NCBI GenBank assembly: GCA_016792585.1
Contig: JAEULB010000074.1
Span: 1 to 39,978 of the forward strand
Direction: 5' to 3'
DNA: 39,978 bases
Source of the DNA: Rhodospirillaceae bacterium
GTDB lineage: Bacteria > Pseudomonadota > Alphaproteobacteria > SHVZ01
In this document: positions 19,815-24,727 of the stretch, piece after piece
Numbering within the stretch: the stretch's first letter is position 1
Layout: each line of letters starts with the position of its first letter
The notes under the pieces: generated by a model
The model's database searches: none
Told to the model about the DNA's origin: nothing
Seen by the model: only the letters and a program-made list of their open reading frames with translations
Translations under genes and position numbers: made by a program

Positions 19815-20906
19815 ATGACCGCGAAAAAGACAAAGGCCAAAGCGCCTGTCGCGGCGAAGAAGGCGAAGGTCGCCTCCGCCGCCAAATCGAAGAAGACGGC
19901 CAAGCCTTCCAAGGCGGCTGCGAAGCCGGCCGTCAAGAAGTCGCAAGGAAAGTCGGTATCGGTGAAGAAGAAGACTCAGGTTCAGGTCAAGAAGCCGGTG
20001 CAGGCTAAGGCGCAGGCGAAGAAGACTCCGATCGTTCGCAAAGTCGAAGCCAAGAAGACGCCGGAAAAGAAGGTCGTCGTCGCGCCCAAGAAGGTCGAAC
20101 CGGCCGTCAAGCAGCCGGCGCCCGAGAAGCTGAACGGCCAGGCGGCGAAGAAGGCCGAGGCCGGCAAGCCCGTCGCGCCGGCGAAGGCCGTCGCCGGCAA
20201 GCCCCCGGTTCCGGCGAAGGCCAACGGGACGAACGGCGCCAAGGCGGTCGCGCCCCGCTCGATGACCATGGCCTCAACGCCGGTCCGCCCGCCCGTGGTG
20301 GCGGTCCCGGGCCAGCCGGCCATCGTCGTGAAGCCGGCGCCGTCGGCGCCGCCGCTGACCGGTGCGCCGCGTCCGTCGGCCGCCGGCGAGTCGGCCAAGC
20401 TCGCGACCCTGATCCGCGCTTCCGGCTTCGCCACCGGCGACCACGTGGTCTATCCGACCCACGGAGTCGGCCGCATTGTCGAGACCGAGACCCAGACCAT
20501 CGCCGGCCAGGACCTGCACCTGTTCGTCATCACCTTCGAGAAGGACCGGATGACCCTCCGGCTCCCGATCGCCAAGGTGCGGACCTCGGGCCTGCGCAAG
20601 CTCGCGACCCGCAAGGAGATGCTGGCGGCGCTGACCCGGCTCAAGGGCCGTTCGCGTGCGCGGCGCACCATGTGGAGCCGCCGAGCCCAGGAGTACGAGG
20701 CCAAGATCAACTCCGGCGATCCGAACTCGATCGCCGAAGTAGTCCGCGACCTCTACCGCAACGCCGGCCAGCCCGATCAGTCTTACTCCGAGCGCCAGAT
20801 CTACCAGGCGGCGCTCGACCGTCTCGCCCGCGAGTTCGCGGTGATCGAGAAGATCGACGAGACCACGGCCGCGCAGCGCCTTGAGCAGATGCTCCGCGCA
20901 GCTTAA
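19815..20906 (+). CDS. carD: CarD-family RNA polymerase-binding regulator with H1-like N-terminal tail
   Basis: A 363-residue protein. Residues about 205-363 are a CarD/CdnL domain: an RNA polymerase interaction module (GDHVVYPTHGVGRIVE, FVITFEKDRMTLRLPIAKV, VRTSGLRKLATRKEM) and a helical DNA-contacting part with the conserved MWSRRAQEYEAKINSGD. Family members bind the polymerase beta subunit and stabilise open promoter complexes. Residues 1 to about 195 are an unusual Lys/Ala/Pro/Val-rich, low-complexity tail resembling histone H1. Typical alphaproteobacterial CarD is roughly half this size. GGAG four bases before ATG and the in-frame lysine-rich start at MTAKKTKAKA support the long form. 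The pseudo-phosphatase follows after 19 bases. Confidence 0.9.
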   Translation: MTAKKTKAKAPVAAKKAKVASAAKSKKTAKPSKAAAKPAVKKSQGKSVSVKKKTQVQVKKPVQAKAQAKKTPIVRKVEAKKTPEKKVVVAPKKVEPAVKQPAPEKLNGQAAKKAEAGKPVAPAKAVAGKPPVPAKANGTNGAKAVAPRSMTMASTPVRPPVVAVPGQPAIVVKPAPSAPPLTGAPRPSAAGESAKLATLIRASGFATGDHVVYPTHGVGRIVETETQTIAGQDLHLFVITFEKDRMTLRLPIAKVRTSGLRKLATRKEMLAALTRLKGRSRARRTMWSRRAQEYEAKINSGDPNSIAEVVRDLYRNAGQPDQSYSERQIYQAALDRLAREFAVIEKIDETTAAQRLEQMLRAA

Positions 20907-20925
20907 GAGGTATCCTTCTCGGCGT

Positions 20926-21720
20926 ATGGCCGATCGGGACAAGTTTGCAGAGTTGAAGCCGAGCGACCGCCTTTGGGCGGTCGCCTCGATTCATGGCGAT
21001 GCCGAGCGCCTCGGCCGCCTGCACGCCGAGCTCGCCGGCCGCCTCGGCTACAACGACCGCCTGATCTATCTCGGCAACTACGTCGGCCACGGCGCCAAGG
21101 CGGCCGAGACCATCGACGAGTTGCTGCGCTTCCGCCTCTGGTTCCTCGCGCGCCCTCTCGCCTTCGTCAGCGACCTGGCCTATCTCCGCGGGGCGCAGGA
21201 GGAGATGTGGCACAAGCTGCTCCAGCTCCAGTTCGCGACCGATCCCCGCGGCGTGCTCGCCTGGATGCTCGATCACGGCGTCGGCGCCACTCTCGCGGCC
21301 TACGGCACCACGGCCGATCAGGGAAAGATCGCGGCCCGCGACGGCGCGCTCTCGATCGGCAAGTGGACCACCCGGATCCGCGAGGCGATCCGCAACCGGC
21401 CGGGCCATGATCCGTTCTTCTCGGGGCTTCGGCGCGCGGCGATCGGCGGGCGCATCCTCTTCTGCCATGCCGGCATCGATCCCTCGCGTCCGCTGGACGA
21501 GCAGACCGACAGCTTCTGGTGGGGAAGCTCCGCCTTCGCCCAGATGGACCGGGCCTATGGCGACTTCGCGACCGTGGTGCGGGGATACGACCGCCAGCAT
21601 CCGGGCCTGGTGGTGACGCCGTTCACGGTGACGCTCGACGGCGGTGCCGGTTTCGGCGGCCCGCTCATCGCCTGCGCCTTCGATGCATCCGGCCAGGTGG
21701 TGGACCAGCTCTCCGTCTAG
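20926..21720 (+). CDS. Metallophosphoesterase-fold protein, degenerate active site
   Basis: A 264-residue protein with the layout of ApaH/PPP-type phosphoesterases but altered motifs. Motif I, normally GDIHG, is ASIHG (Asp replaced by Ser21). Motif II, normally GDYVDRG, is GNYVGHG (51-56 region, both Asp lost). Motif III, normally GNHE, is GAQE (Asn and His lost). The late HAG motif is kept (FCHAGIDPS). The fold is thus likely kept while most metal ligands are gone, suggesting a non-catalytic binding protein. The start MADRDKF follows carD by 19 bases, indicating an operon. Stop codon overlaps the ROK gene's. Confidence 0.75.
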   Translation: MADRDKFAELKPSDRLWAVASIHGDAERLGRLHAELAGRLGYNDRLIYLGNYVGHGAKAAETIDELLRFRLWFLARPLAFVSDLAYLRGAQEEMWHKLLQLQFATDPRGVLAWMLDHGVGATLAAYGTTADQGKIAARDGALSIGKWTTRIREAIRNRPGHDPFFSGLRRAAIGGRILFCHAGIDPSRPLDEQTDSFWWGSSAFAQMDRAYGDFATVVRGYDRQHPGLVVTPFTVTLDGGAGFGGPLIACAFDASGQVVDQLSV

Positions 21721-22805
21721 GCGGCGGTCCTCGTCGTCGCGTTCTTCGCGGTGCTTTCGCGGTTGGTGTAGCTGGCGTTGCCGAGACCGGTGCCCATGGT
21801 CAGCACGCCCCAGTGCTTCACGTCCCGCATCTGCGGCACCTCGCTCAGGCCCTGGACCACGGCGTCGTTGTGCATGACCACCGCGGTATCGCGGCCGCCG
21901 ATCGCGGGGATGCGCTCCTTCAGCACCACGGGCAGGTTGAAGCGGCTGCTCGACCAGTTGCCGGGAAGGTTCTGCGCGCCGCGCGCGATGGTGCCTTTCT
22001 CCTCGATCAGGCCGGGGCAGCCGATGCCGATGAAGGGCGCCAGCTTGAGCCCGTCCTTCTCGGCCTTCTTGATGGAGCGCTGAAGCATCTTCACCAGGCG
22101 ATCGATCACGTCCTCGCGCTTCGGACCATCGTCCGCATGCCGCCATAGCTCGAAGGCCTCGACCTCCGCCTTCGAGAGATCGCGGCCGTCGTTGGTATTC
22201 AACGAAACGACGCCGCAGCGGATGTTGGATCCGCCGACATCGACCGCGAGCACGGCATTGAAACCCTCGAACAGCCAAGGCGGCACCAGCCGGGCGCAGC
22301 CGATCAGCGCCGCCTGGTCCGGGTGGTGGGAGAGCGGCACAAGGTCGACGTCGAGCTTGTCGCTCTTGAGGATCGCCGCCGCACGCCCGATCGCGATCTC
22401 GCCGACGCGGCTCTGGCGCAGGCCGCCGCCGATGGCGATGCGCTCGATCTCGCGCCATGCCTTGAGCCTGAGAAAGCGCTTGGTGACGCCGGCGAGCTTC
22501 TGGGCGAACTCCTCGATGGCGCCGTGGAGGATCCCGGCGGCCAGCGGGTCGCCGGTCCTGAGCAGCTTGTCGAGATCCTTCTTCTTCAGCTGGTTGCTGG
22601 GGACGTCCCCGAACGGGTCGCGATCGCCCTTGGCGACCTCCTTGCGGATCTCGTCGAGGATCGCGCGGAAGGCCTGGCCGCTGGCGCGGTCGCCGACGAA
22701 ACCCTCGTCGTCCTTGATCTCGACGTTGTAGCTGTCGAGCGTGACGTCCGGCAGCTCGCTGGCGCCATGCATGAAGCTCGAATGATCGTGTCCCGGGCTC
22801 GTCAC
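21717..22805 (-). CDS. ROK-family sugar kinase, apparently circularly permuted
   Basis: A 362-residue ASKHA-fold protein. Normal ROK kinases begin with the phosphate-1 DxGGT motif and end with a GGG helix-strand module. Here the terminal module comes first (AGILHGAIEEFAQKLAGV, IAIGGGLRQSRVGE at about 123-136, DQAALIGCARL at 163-173). The N-terminal module follows: AVDVGGSNIRCG at 187-198, IGCPGLI at 261-267, NLPGNW, catalytic NDAVVQG with Asp314, and GTGLGNA at 338-344. The protein ends 18 residues later. The zinc-binding CxCGxxGC segment is absent. GTG at 22805 is preferred as start because GGAG lies nine bases upstream; ATG at 22772 is the alternative. It follows the adenylate cyclase by 98 bases. 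Confidence 0.82.
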   Translation of the reverse strand: MTSPGHDHSSFMHGASELPDVTLDSYNVEIKDDEGFVGDRASGQAFRAILDEIRKEVAKGDRDPFGDVPSNQLKKKDLDKLLRTGDPLAAGILHGAIEEFAQKLAGVTKRFLRLKAWREIERIAIGGGLRQSRVGEIAIGRAAAILKSDKLDVDLVPLSHHPDQAALIGCARLVPPWLFEGFNAVLAVDVGGSNIRCGVVSLNTNDGRDLSKAEVEAFELWRHADDGPKREDVIDRLVKMLQRSIKKAEKDGLKLAPFIGIGCPGLIEEKGTIARGAQNLPGNWSSSRFNLPVVLKERIPAIGGRDTAVVMHNDAVVQGLSEVPQMRDVKHWGVLTMGTGLGNASYTNRESTAKNATTRTAA

Positions 22806-22903
22806 GGGTGGGGTCTCCGTCGGGGATCGCGAGGCGCGACTTCGGGCCTCACATAAACCGGCCCCGCCATGCTTGGTTCCGGTGCGGCCTCGGTTCCGCC
22901 CCG

Positions 22904-24727
22904 TCAGGCCACCCGGAAGAGCTCTATGGCCTCCATCCGGCCGCGCAGCTGGCGGGTGCCGAGGCTCCTGCAGTCGCGGGCCTCCCTGCCTGCCGCCCGG
23001 ATCGTCTCGCTGCTCGCCAGCACGACGACGTCGGCCGAGTCCTCGACGTCCTTGGCCTCGCTCAGGATGCGGGTCGCCGAGTTCACGGTGTCGCCGACGA
23101 TCGTGTAGTTGACGCGGCCGGCCGGCCCGACGTTGCCGACGACGGCCGGGCCGGTGTGGAGGCCGACCGCGACCCGGATCGCGGGCAGCCCGTCCGCCAC
23201 CCGTCGCCGGTTGTCGGAGGCGACCGCGGCGGCGATCGCGCGCGCGGCGCGGATCGCCCGGGCGGCGTGGTCGGGCTCGATCGCCGGCGCACCCCAGAAC
23301 GCCATCACGCTGTCGCCGATGTACTTGTCGACGATGCCTTCCTCGGCGTCGACGACATCGTCGATCAGCGCGAAGTGCTCGTTGAGCAATGCCGCGACCT
23401 CCGCTGCCGACAGCCGCTCGGACAGCGTGGTGAAGCCGCGGATATCGGTGAACAGCACCGTCACGCGCCGCTCGGCGGAGGCGATTGCGGTCGTCTGCCG
23501 GCCGATCAGCTGGCCGACCAGCCGGCGCGGCACATAGGTCTCGAACCAGCGGAGACCGGTCAGCATCTGGTTGAAGGCGCGTCCGGCGTCGTCGAGCTCG
23601 CGCACGACGCTGCGGCGAAGCGGCGGGGAGGAGGCGAGATCGAGGCTCCTGACCGCCTCGGCCGAACGGGCGAGTGCCAGGATCGGCCGGCCAAGCATCC
23701 GGGCGAAGGCGATCGCAGCGATCAGCGCGACCAGCAGCACCGCCGCTCCGGCAAGCGAGGCCTGAAGCAGGCGGAGCAGCTCGCGGTCGACGTCCTGCTG
23801 GTCGAAATAGGTGCCGATGATCCACGGGGTCGGCCCATAGCCGCGCAGCTCGCGGGTGAGGAAGATGTAGGTGCGGCCATCGACCTCGACCTGATGACCC
23901 TCGGTCGAGCCGAGGCGCAACGGCTCCAGGCGAACGCCCTTGGGATCCCAGATCTGGGCGAGGACCGGGTCCTCTACCTGCGCCAAGAGCGGCAGCGGCT
24001 GGCGCTCGTCGGTGGTGATCGAGCGCCTGGCGGCGAGGTTCGGGTGGGCTAGCACCTCGTCGCGGCCGCGCAGGATGAAAGGCCGCCCGATGACCTCGCC
24101 GGGGATCGTCTGCAACGTGCGCGACAGGTTGCCGACCTGGACGACGGCGCCGAGCCCGCCGACGAAGACGCCGTCGCGCCAGAGCGGCGTGCGGAGATTG
24201 ATGAAAGCCCCCAGGCCGCGGGTCCACAGCACCTCGCCCCAGAAGGACTGCTTGGTCTTGCTCGCTTCTTCCAGGCGCTCGCGTGCCGCTGCGTCGTCGC
24301 TCCAGTCGTTGACCAGGACATAGCCGGTGCGCGCGACGAGCGTCGCCTGGTTGGCGGTGTCCAGCAGGATCAGGCTGCTGACCTCGGGGCTTCCGGCCTG
24401 TGCCGCATAGAGCGTCTCGGCAACCTGGGCTCGGTTCCCGATGTCGAGCTCGCGTGCCGCCACCATGCGCGCGATGAACTCGGCCTGATGGCGCGCCGGC
24501 TCGAGATGCAGGCGGATCTGCTGCTCGATCGCGGTCACCACCAGGTCGGCCTTGTCGGAGAGAAGGTCGAAGGTATTGCGCCGGCTGGAACCGAGGCCGA
24601 TCGCCAGCACCGTCAGGACGGCCGCGAGGACCAGGCCGCCGATACCGACCAGCAGGACGCCGACGATCGGGATGCGCGGCAGCCAGAAGCGCCGGCGACG
24701 CGACGCGACCTGCAGGCTCGACCTCAT
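22904..24727 (-). CDS. Membrane-bound class III adenylate cyclase with periplasmic sensor
   Basis: A 607-residue cyclase. Transmembrane helix 1 is about residues 20-45; a roughly 270-residue extracytoplasmic sensor region (probably Cache-like) follows, then helix 2 near 320-345, a HAMP-like linker and a class III catalytic domain from about 420. The metal ligands are Asp428 (FTDIRGF) and Asp472 (YIGDSVMAF). Lys468 in DKYIGD and Asp546 in GDTVNSATR occupy the base-selecting positions and point to ATP rather than GTP. It makes cAMP in response to an unknown periplasmic signal. The ATG overlaps the M48 stop as ATGA, indicating coupled translation. Confidence 0.92.
   Translation of the reverse strand: MRSSLQVASRRRRFWLPRIPIVGVLLVGIGGLVLAAVLTVLAIGLGSSRRNTFDLLSDKADLVVTAIEQQIRLHLEPARHQAEFIARMVAARELDIGNRAQVAETLYAAQAGSPEVSSLILLDTANQATLVARTGYVLVNDWSDDAAARERLEEASKTKQSFWGEVLWTRGLGAFINLRTPLWRDGVFVGGLGAVVQVGNLSRTLQTIPGEVIGRPFILRGRDEVLAHPNLAARRSITTDERQPLPLLAQVEDPVLAQIWDPKGVRLEPLRLGSTEGHQVEVDGRTYIFLTRELRGYGPTPWIIGTYFDQQDVDRELLRLLQASLAGAAVLLVALIAAIAFARMLGRPILALARSAEAVRSLDLASSPPLRRSVVRELDDAGRAFNQMLTGLRWFETYVPRRLVGQLIGRQTTAIASAERRVTVLFTDIRGFTTLSERLSAAEVAALLNEHFALIDDVVDAEEGIVDKYIGDSVMAFWGAPAIEPDHAARAIRAARAIAAAVASDNRRRVADGLPAIRVAVGLHTGPAVVGNVGPAGRVNYTIVGDTVNSATRILSEAKDVEDSADVVVLASSETIRAAGREARDCRSLGTRQLRGRMEAIELFRVA

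Follow-up and report, generated by a model that had tools for sequence, protein, structure and literature searches.

Natural circular permutation is known in some enzyme families, and the structural zinc cysteines of the ROK family form a CxCGxxGC motif. The described proteins closest to the gene treated here are the ROK kinases (PF00480), among them the S. griseus glucokinase 3vgk, the N-acetylmannosamine (ManNAc) kinases 2yhw and 5nck and NagK 7p7w, and the polyphosphate/ATP glucokinases (PPGK; 1woq). The gene lies on the minus strand of contig JAEULB010000074.1 of a Rhodospirillaceae bacterium, in an analysed stretch of 39,978 nucleotides that we call the window: an open reading frame (ORF) at 21717..22805, stop included, which encodes 362 aa and has its GTG start behind a purine-rich GGAGA. 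Its product is a ROK-type protein with the two halves swapped. The DxGG, ND, GTGxG and GGG motifs, the C-terminal helix, the ExGH-type His and, by prediction, the fold are all shared with ROK kinases; the key differences are (i), the order of the halves, with new termini after the GTG strand; (ii), the lack of the zinc cysteines; and (iii), the length (~360 vs 300 aa). Taking these data together, we hold that this protein is very probably a natural circular permutant of a ROK sugar kinase, its halves predicted to form one ASKHA fold, and a likely hexose kinase that probably acts in the general stress response.

The swapped order can be read directly from profile comparisons. Pfam ROK scores 37.9 bits on the protein (2e-9), above the curated cut-off of 22.9, with this score summed over two stretches, of which the best pairs residues 186-349 with profile positions 2-142 of 294. 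Against a profile of 30 canonical ROKs, residues 70-174 align with positions 199-296 and residues 186-281 with positions 3-82; overall, residues 70-175 match the ROK C-terminal half and residues 184-349 the N-terminal half. The initial annotation had proposed that the ROK motifs stand in reversed order, with two halves that can be aligned separately to the ROK profile, and this is borne out by profile rotation, by a survey of the family and by predicted structures. In profile-profile comparison the native order gives two separate matches, the second half scoring 51.3 over 138 columns and the first 41.5 over 97, while the family profile rotated at residue 183 aligns with the canonical ROK profile in one piece (284 columns, score 71.5; reversed-sequence controls, 15-18). 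When the cut was moved through 19 positions in steps of 20, the cuts at 140, 160 and 180 were best (70.8) and the remaining ones reached at most 55.3. A broader family alignment of 96 sequences, 42-85% identical to the window's protein, behaves in the same way (66.8 over 277 columns when rotated vs 47.4 over 136).

This order is a property of the family. We assembled 240 proteins from two protein searches (120 matches listed from each, of 8000 and 7885 passing), minus a self copy (P0002) and plus the window's own protein: the order is swapped in 239 of them, hence in 238 of 239 relatives, and the one left unassigned (P0156, on which the order pattern failed) is swapped when read by eye. No control protein is swapped, neither among the 30 canonical ROKs (22 canonical, 8 unassigned) nor among 120 PPGK-like proteins (118 canonical, 2 unassigned). 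The canonical order of halves, taken as a mark of ROK membership, is thus not found in the permuted family.

The motifs all lie where the initial annotation had placed them (coordinates are on the minus strand throughout). The first half, residues 13-175 (22281..22769), is the counterpart of the ROK C-terminal half in both profile and structure comparisons. It opens with His13 (22767..22769), continues with GFVGDRAS (residues 35-42; 22680..22703), which profile alignment makes the counterpart of the ROK GCxExxxS segment without its zinc Cys, then carries the adenosine-motif glycines GGG (residues 126-128; 22422..22430) and has an equivalent of the C-terminal helix (residues 162-171, including A-L-I-G-C-A at 166-171; 22293..22322). 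A linker (residues 172-183; 22257..22292) bridges what were the C and N termini of the ROK chain. The second half, residues 184-349 (21759..22256), is the counterpart of the ROK N-terminal half, with the phosphate-1 motif DVGGSN (residues 189-194; 22224..22241), CPG at residues 263-265, NLPGNW at 279-284, N313-D314 (21864..21869), in which Asp314 is the presumed catalytic base, and the phosphate-2 motif GTGLG (residues 338-342; 21780..21794), beyond which lie the last strand and the new C terminus.

The chain is cut immediately behind the GTG strand. Once the family is rotated and aligned, the C-terminal GTGLGNASYTNR passes into the canonical strand that follows the phosphate-2 loop, and the N-terminal M-H-G-A-x-x-L-P falls on the canonical E-x-G-H segment, with His13 on its His and GFVGDRAS on GCxExxxS. 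Because residues 13-42 pair with the zinc/ExGH segment, this segment has moved to the N-terminus and is not lost. The initial annotation was therefore right about the break after the GTG loop and wrong about the absence of the zinc segment, which is present with its His kept and only its zinc cysteines gone; simple deletion of the segment is rejected, since its counterpart sits at the N-terminus. The His of ExGH is conserved in 95/96 sequences, the Glu is not, and Asp39, within GFVGDRAS, is invariant (96/96). Three or more Cys in the zinc segment occur in none of the 232 family proteins (of 240) in which it could be located, vs 20/30 canonical ROKs and 0/120 PPGK-like ROKs. In NagK, according to the available part of its description, H157 also holds zinc (PMC10031466).

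How the two halves come together is suggested by structure prediction. The AlphaFold2 model of the whole protein is one confident compact fold (predicted local distance difference test score, pLDDT, 92; predicted template modelling score, pTM, 0.90), in line with the earlier proposal of a single kinase domain, so that the halves are predicted to pack together as one ASKHA fold. When the second half of the full model and an independently built, weaker model of the first half are placed on eight solved ROK-type chains, they cover the chain in swapped order, meeting just after the GTG loop. The ROK/ASKHA fold is seen on predicted models only, and the first half matches ROK chains with modest Z. 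Foldseek matches of the full model to ROK chains cover no more than a half (best E 8.7e-6, 174 columns, TMq 0.38); rows of human glucokinase in some cases extend over 330-339 columns, but at 10.8-13.1 Å. The C-terminal helix of NagK belongs to the N-terminal domain, as stated in the available part of its description (PMC10031466), which makes a direct join of the old ROK termini plausible: these would lie close together, joined by the 12-residue linker, and the new termini would arise in what is, in ordinary ROKs, the ExGH- and zinc-bearing loop.

The catalytic equipment appears to be intact. The key residues of the phosphate-1, base ND, phosphate-2 and GGG motifs are invariant in 96/96 sequences, Asp314 among them; the initial annotation had already seen these motifs kept in the window's protein. 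In NagK the equivalent base is D105, and mutations show that D6, T10, D105 and T132 matter for metal, phosphate or base (PMC10031466, available part). Judged from sequence, the protein is likely an active, zinc-free hexose kinase of the general stress response, with a mechanism most likely as in ROK kinases: Asp189 would coordinate the metal, the sugar hydroxyl would lose its proton to Asp314 and Thr339 would bind phosphate, while His13, possibly with Asp39, would bind the sugar without a zinc site. Phosphate would pass from ATP, or possibly polyphosphate, to a hexose.

Among described proteins, PPGK (1woq and the set P0242-P0361, many of which are named polyphosphate glucokinase by their sources) share the GTGxGxA phosphate-2 loop and the lack of zinc cysteines, and the second half of the permuted protein matches them better than canonical ROK. 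PPGK differ in their canonical order, their length (~250 aa) and their short C-terminal half, which does not match that of the permuted protein. No whole-length match to the PPGK-like profile was obtained: only the second half matches, rotated or not, and the NCBIfam model PolPhglucPhase scores 23.5 bits, below its cut-off of 250. Short PPGK-like ROKs without zinc cysteines also exist in Alphaproteobacteria (L161-L164, P0242-P0361), including at least four genomes that carry the permuted gene (G066, G223, G417, G330).

The family is broad and patchy. Similar proteins had been thought to occur in other Alphaproteobacteria labelled simply as ROK; 'ROK family protein' is indeed their label, and the family extends also to Gammaproteobacteria. 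By source names and record titles among the matches listed, the alphaproteobacterial side includes Bradyrhizobium, Rhodoplanes, Nitrobacter, Roseomonas, Dongia and Terrihabitans, and the gammaproteobacterial side Lysobacter, Pseudoxanthomonas, Luteimonas, Stenotrophomonas and Peristeroidobacter. Plasmids contribute 206 matching records, mostly from Rhizobium (111) and Sinorhizobium (79), all <60% identical. Two of the labels look doubtful: a record titled Asaia bogorensis metagenome-assembled genome (L036) has a neighbour set close to that of the window, and a contig titled Frankia sp. (L053; 59% identity), probably mislabelled, falls among Bradyrhizobium rows. Counting the window's own genome each time, the gene is present in 5/142 sampled genomes of the class, 22/398 of the phylum and 5/60 genomes of relatives, one of these only as fragments. 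Within the window's genus, the gene of G526 (L135, with the same upstream sequence and scores as L036) contains a TAG stop and G525 holds two fragments (L136/L137), so that in these genomes the gene is either dispensable or decaying, or the assemblies are in error. G330 and G346 carry two copies each, G330 also a short first-half fragment nearby.

In a quickly computed tree the family forms one clade on a long stem (SH-aLRT, Shimodaira-Hasegawa-like approximate likelihood ratio test, 100; length 2.5; 15 of 65 rows), and it probably arose once; the same tree gives it no settled place inside ROK. No un-permuted close relative was seen when 396 Pseudomonadota genomes were scanned with the rotated profile, at most five candidates being scored per genome: in 22 genomes the permuted gene was recovered as halves, while 14 yielded only weak canonical-ROK matches (<=26.6 bits, none spanning the profile).

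Could the swapped order have another cause? That it stems from assembly or gene calling is rejected, and we regard this as next to impossible given the family-wide order (239/240) and the full-length matches on complete plasmid records. A fusion of two ROK proteins in swapped order, the second half from a PPGK-like short ROK and the first from a long ROK, deserves more attention. It would account for a second half that scores 88 with the PPGK-like profile and 48 with canonical ROK, and a first half that scores 42 with canonical and 15 with PPGK, a pattern that speaks against simple permutation. We nevertheless find such a fusion rather unlikely: PPGK-like proteins are without most of the helical region, so that the low first-half score may reflect this loss, the rotated whole aligns over 284 columns with one canonical profile, and the tree puts it in no known subfamily.

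Doubts about activity are of a different kind. Repressors with the ROK fold are known, the protein has lost the ExGH Glu and the zinc cysteines, and the TAG in G526 and the fragments in G525 make the gene dispensable there; all three weigh against an active kinase and would suit an inactive or regulatory protein whose sole task is to sense sugar or nucleotide. That all 96 sequences keep the equivalents of the metal-binding Asp, of the base and of the phosphate-2 Thr, and that no DNA-binding domain precedes the fold, makes this an improbable alternative, somewhat more so than the fusion. As to the phosphate donor, the nucleotide-binding half is nearest PPGK-like of the two profiles tried, and the solved structures among the profile matches include the polyphosphate/ATP glucomannokinase 1woq (E 0.0016), which might suggest a hexose kinase dependent on polyphosphate and not on ATP. 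Such matches cannot tell donor specificity, however, and the ManNAc kinase 2yhw scores better (5.1e-5), leaving strict polyphosphate dependence doubtful. We thus return to an active permuted ROK kinase, and to its likely context.

Upstream of the gene is an EcfG-like promoter motif, GGAAC-N16-GGTT (22856..22880, minus strand), with its first base 75 bp before the GTG start; it is the sole GGAAC-N16..18-GTT match on either strand of the window, and two near relatives keep it at 71 and 74 bp while the surrounding sequence has diverged. Motif and spacing resemble EcfG/RpoE2 regulon promoters, for which the available part of a study on R. etli gives GGAAC-N16-CGTT (PMC3892343), vs GGTT in the window. 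The strict pattern occurs in 11/46 upstream regions of relatives vs 29/3822 background windows. A relaxed pattern, adopted after the strict one gave no match in the window, occurs in 18/47 upstream regions, taken from 37 dereplicated loci, 9 plasmid loci and the window itself, always 78-137 bp before the His13 codon, vs 73/4862 background windows and 4/415 for the remaining genes at these loci, each scanned over 150 bp ahead of its first start. NepR is encoded in 20/27 carriers of the permuted gene: 20/22 in the window's class, its own genome included, and 0/5 elsewhere.

The neighbours are also suggestive. A trehalose-phosphatase is the divergent neighbour in Rhizobium and Shinella: otsB lies ~110-145 bp away in 5/10 plasmid loci fetched (L156, where it is annotated haloacid dehalogenase, L182, L184, L185 and L186) and likewise in L142. 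RpoE2 is reportedly needed for trehalose synthesis in S. meliloti, if the title of one study is followed. The two S. meliloti loci have the NAGGN osmoprotectant-system peptidase in this divergent position, and L141 has a glycine-betaine-type transporter; other neighbourhoods differ. On two Rhizobium plasmids (L182, L185) the permuted gene is flanked by otsB and repABC and is near the plasmid's replication genes.

Several observations go against this regulatory assignment: the strict GGAAC-N16/17-CGTT pattern has no match in the window, whose copy reads GGTT for CGTT; 29/47 upstream regions lack even the relaxed motif, including both Shinella loci and five of the seven titled Bradyrhizobium; and some of the 18 carriers are close relatives, so that binomial significance is overstated. 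Two gamma-titled loci carry the relaxed motif. On balance, promoter sequences suggest that transcription is likely driven by EcfG in Alphaproteobacteria, in which case the enzyme probably works in the general stress response. From the upstream motif, NepR and the otsB and osmoprotectant neighbours together, we infer a hexose kinase induced by stress, which may supply hexose phosphate to, or draw it from, the metabolism of trehalose or other osmoprotectants.

A conserved operon was looked for and not found: only the near relatives L036 and L037, of 80 named genome loci, match window genes on both sides, and a few further loci match single window ORFs, such as a LysR gene (L043, L097, L103). The recurrence of neighbours was judged on raw ORFs of 37 dereplicated loci, not gene calls. 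In the window, the convergent neighbour (20881-21720, plus strand) has no Pfam match at 1e-4; it resembles calcineurin-type phosphatases, with degenerate metal motifs. The upstream gene (22904-24652, minus strand) carries an adenylate/guanylate cyclase domain (7.9e-23) and also matches dCache and HAMP, though more weakly (~1e-5). The permuted gene has a single match in its own genome (G000:C12:21720-22805; 5.1 Mb, 236 contigs, 88.8% complete). It is not the host's sole glucokinase, a role we rejected because the genome also carries a Glk-type glucokinase (PF02685; G000:C20:4431-5366), an ASKHA glucokinase as the permuted protein may be, of a separate family and of canonical order.

No description of a permuted ROK or ASKHA sugar kinase was found among the literature matches listed, which cover titles and the starts of abstracts, with subscription papers mostly outside coverage. 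In its available part, PMC1079889 treats circular permutation solely as a criterion by which kinase folds are grouped, and that of PMC12696579, on the glucose kinase superfamily, has no word beginning 'permut' by term search. Term searches of the available main texts of PMC3616915 and PMC6180224 (S. meliloti promoters and sigma factors), PMC9611204 and PMC12965863 returned nothing on the permuted gene or on permutation. Sequential profile tools and annotation pipelines show the permuted protein as a half match; in our hands, NCBIfam gave four weak matches at residues 183-350, all to ROK-type sugar kinases and all far below cut-offs, and a six-frame search of the genome with PF00480 gave no match at E 0.001.

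We see about even chances that these proteins form a widespread, active family of naturally permuted ASKHA sugar kinases, unnoticed under the name 'ROK family protein', in which a single event moved the termini into the zinc/ExGH loop and left a zinc-free sugar site, and which was recruited to the alphaproteobacterial general stress response beside trehalose and osmoprotectant genes. The upstream motif makes the link to the general stress response directly testable in S. meliloti or Rhizobium. Retention of the permutant from rhizobia to Xanthomonadales suggests that a two-lobed ASKHA kinase can tolerate new termini at its very sugar/zinc-binding loop, and gives a naturally occurring example in which to study how a rearrangement of this type comes to be fixed.
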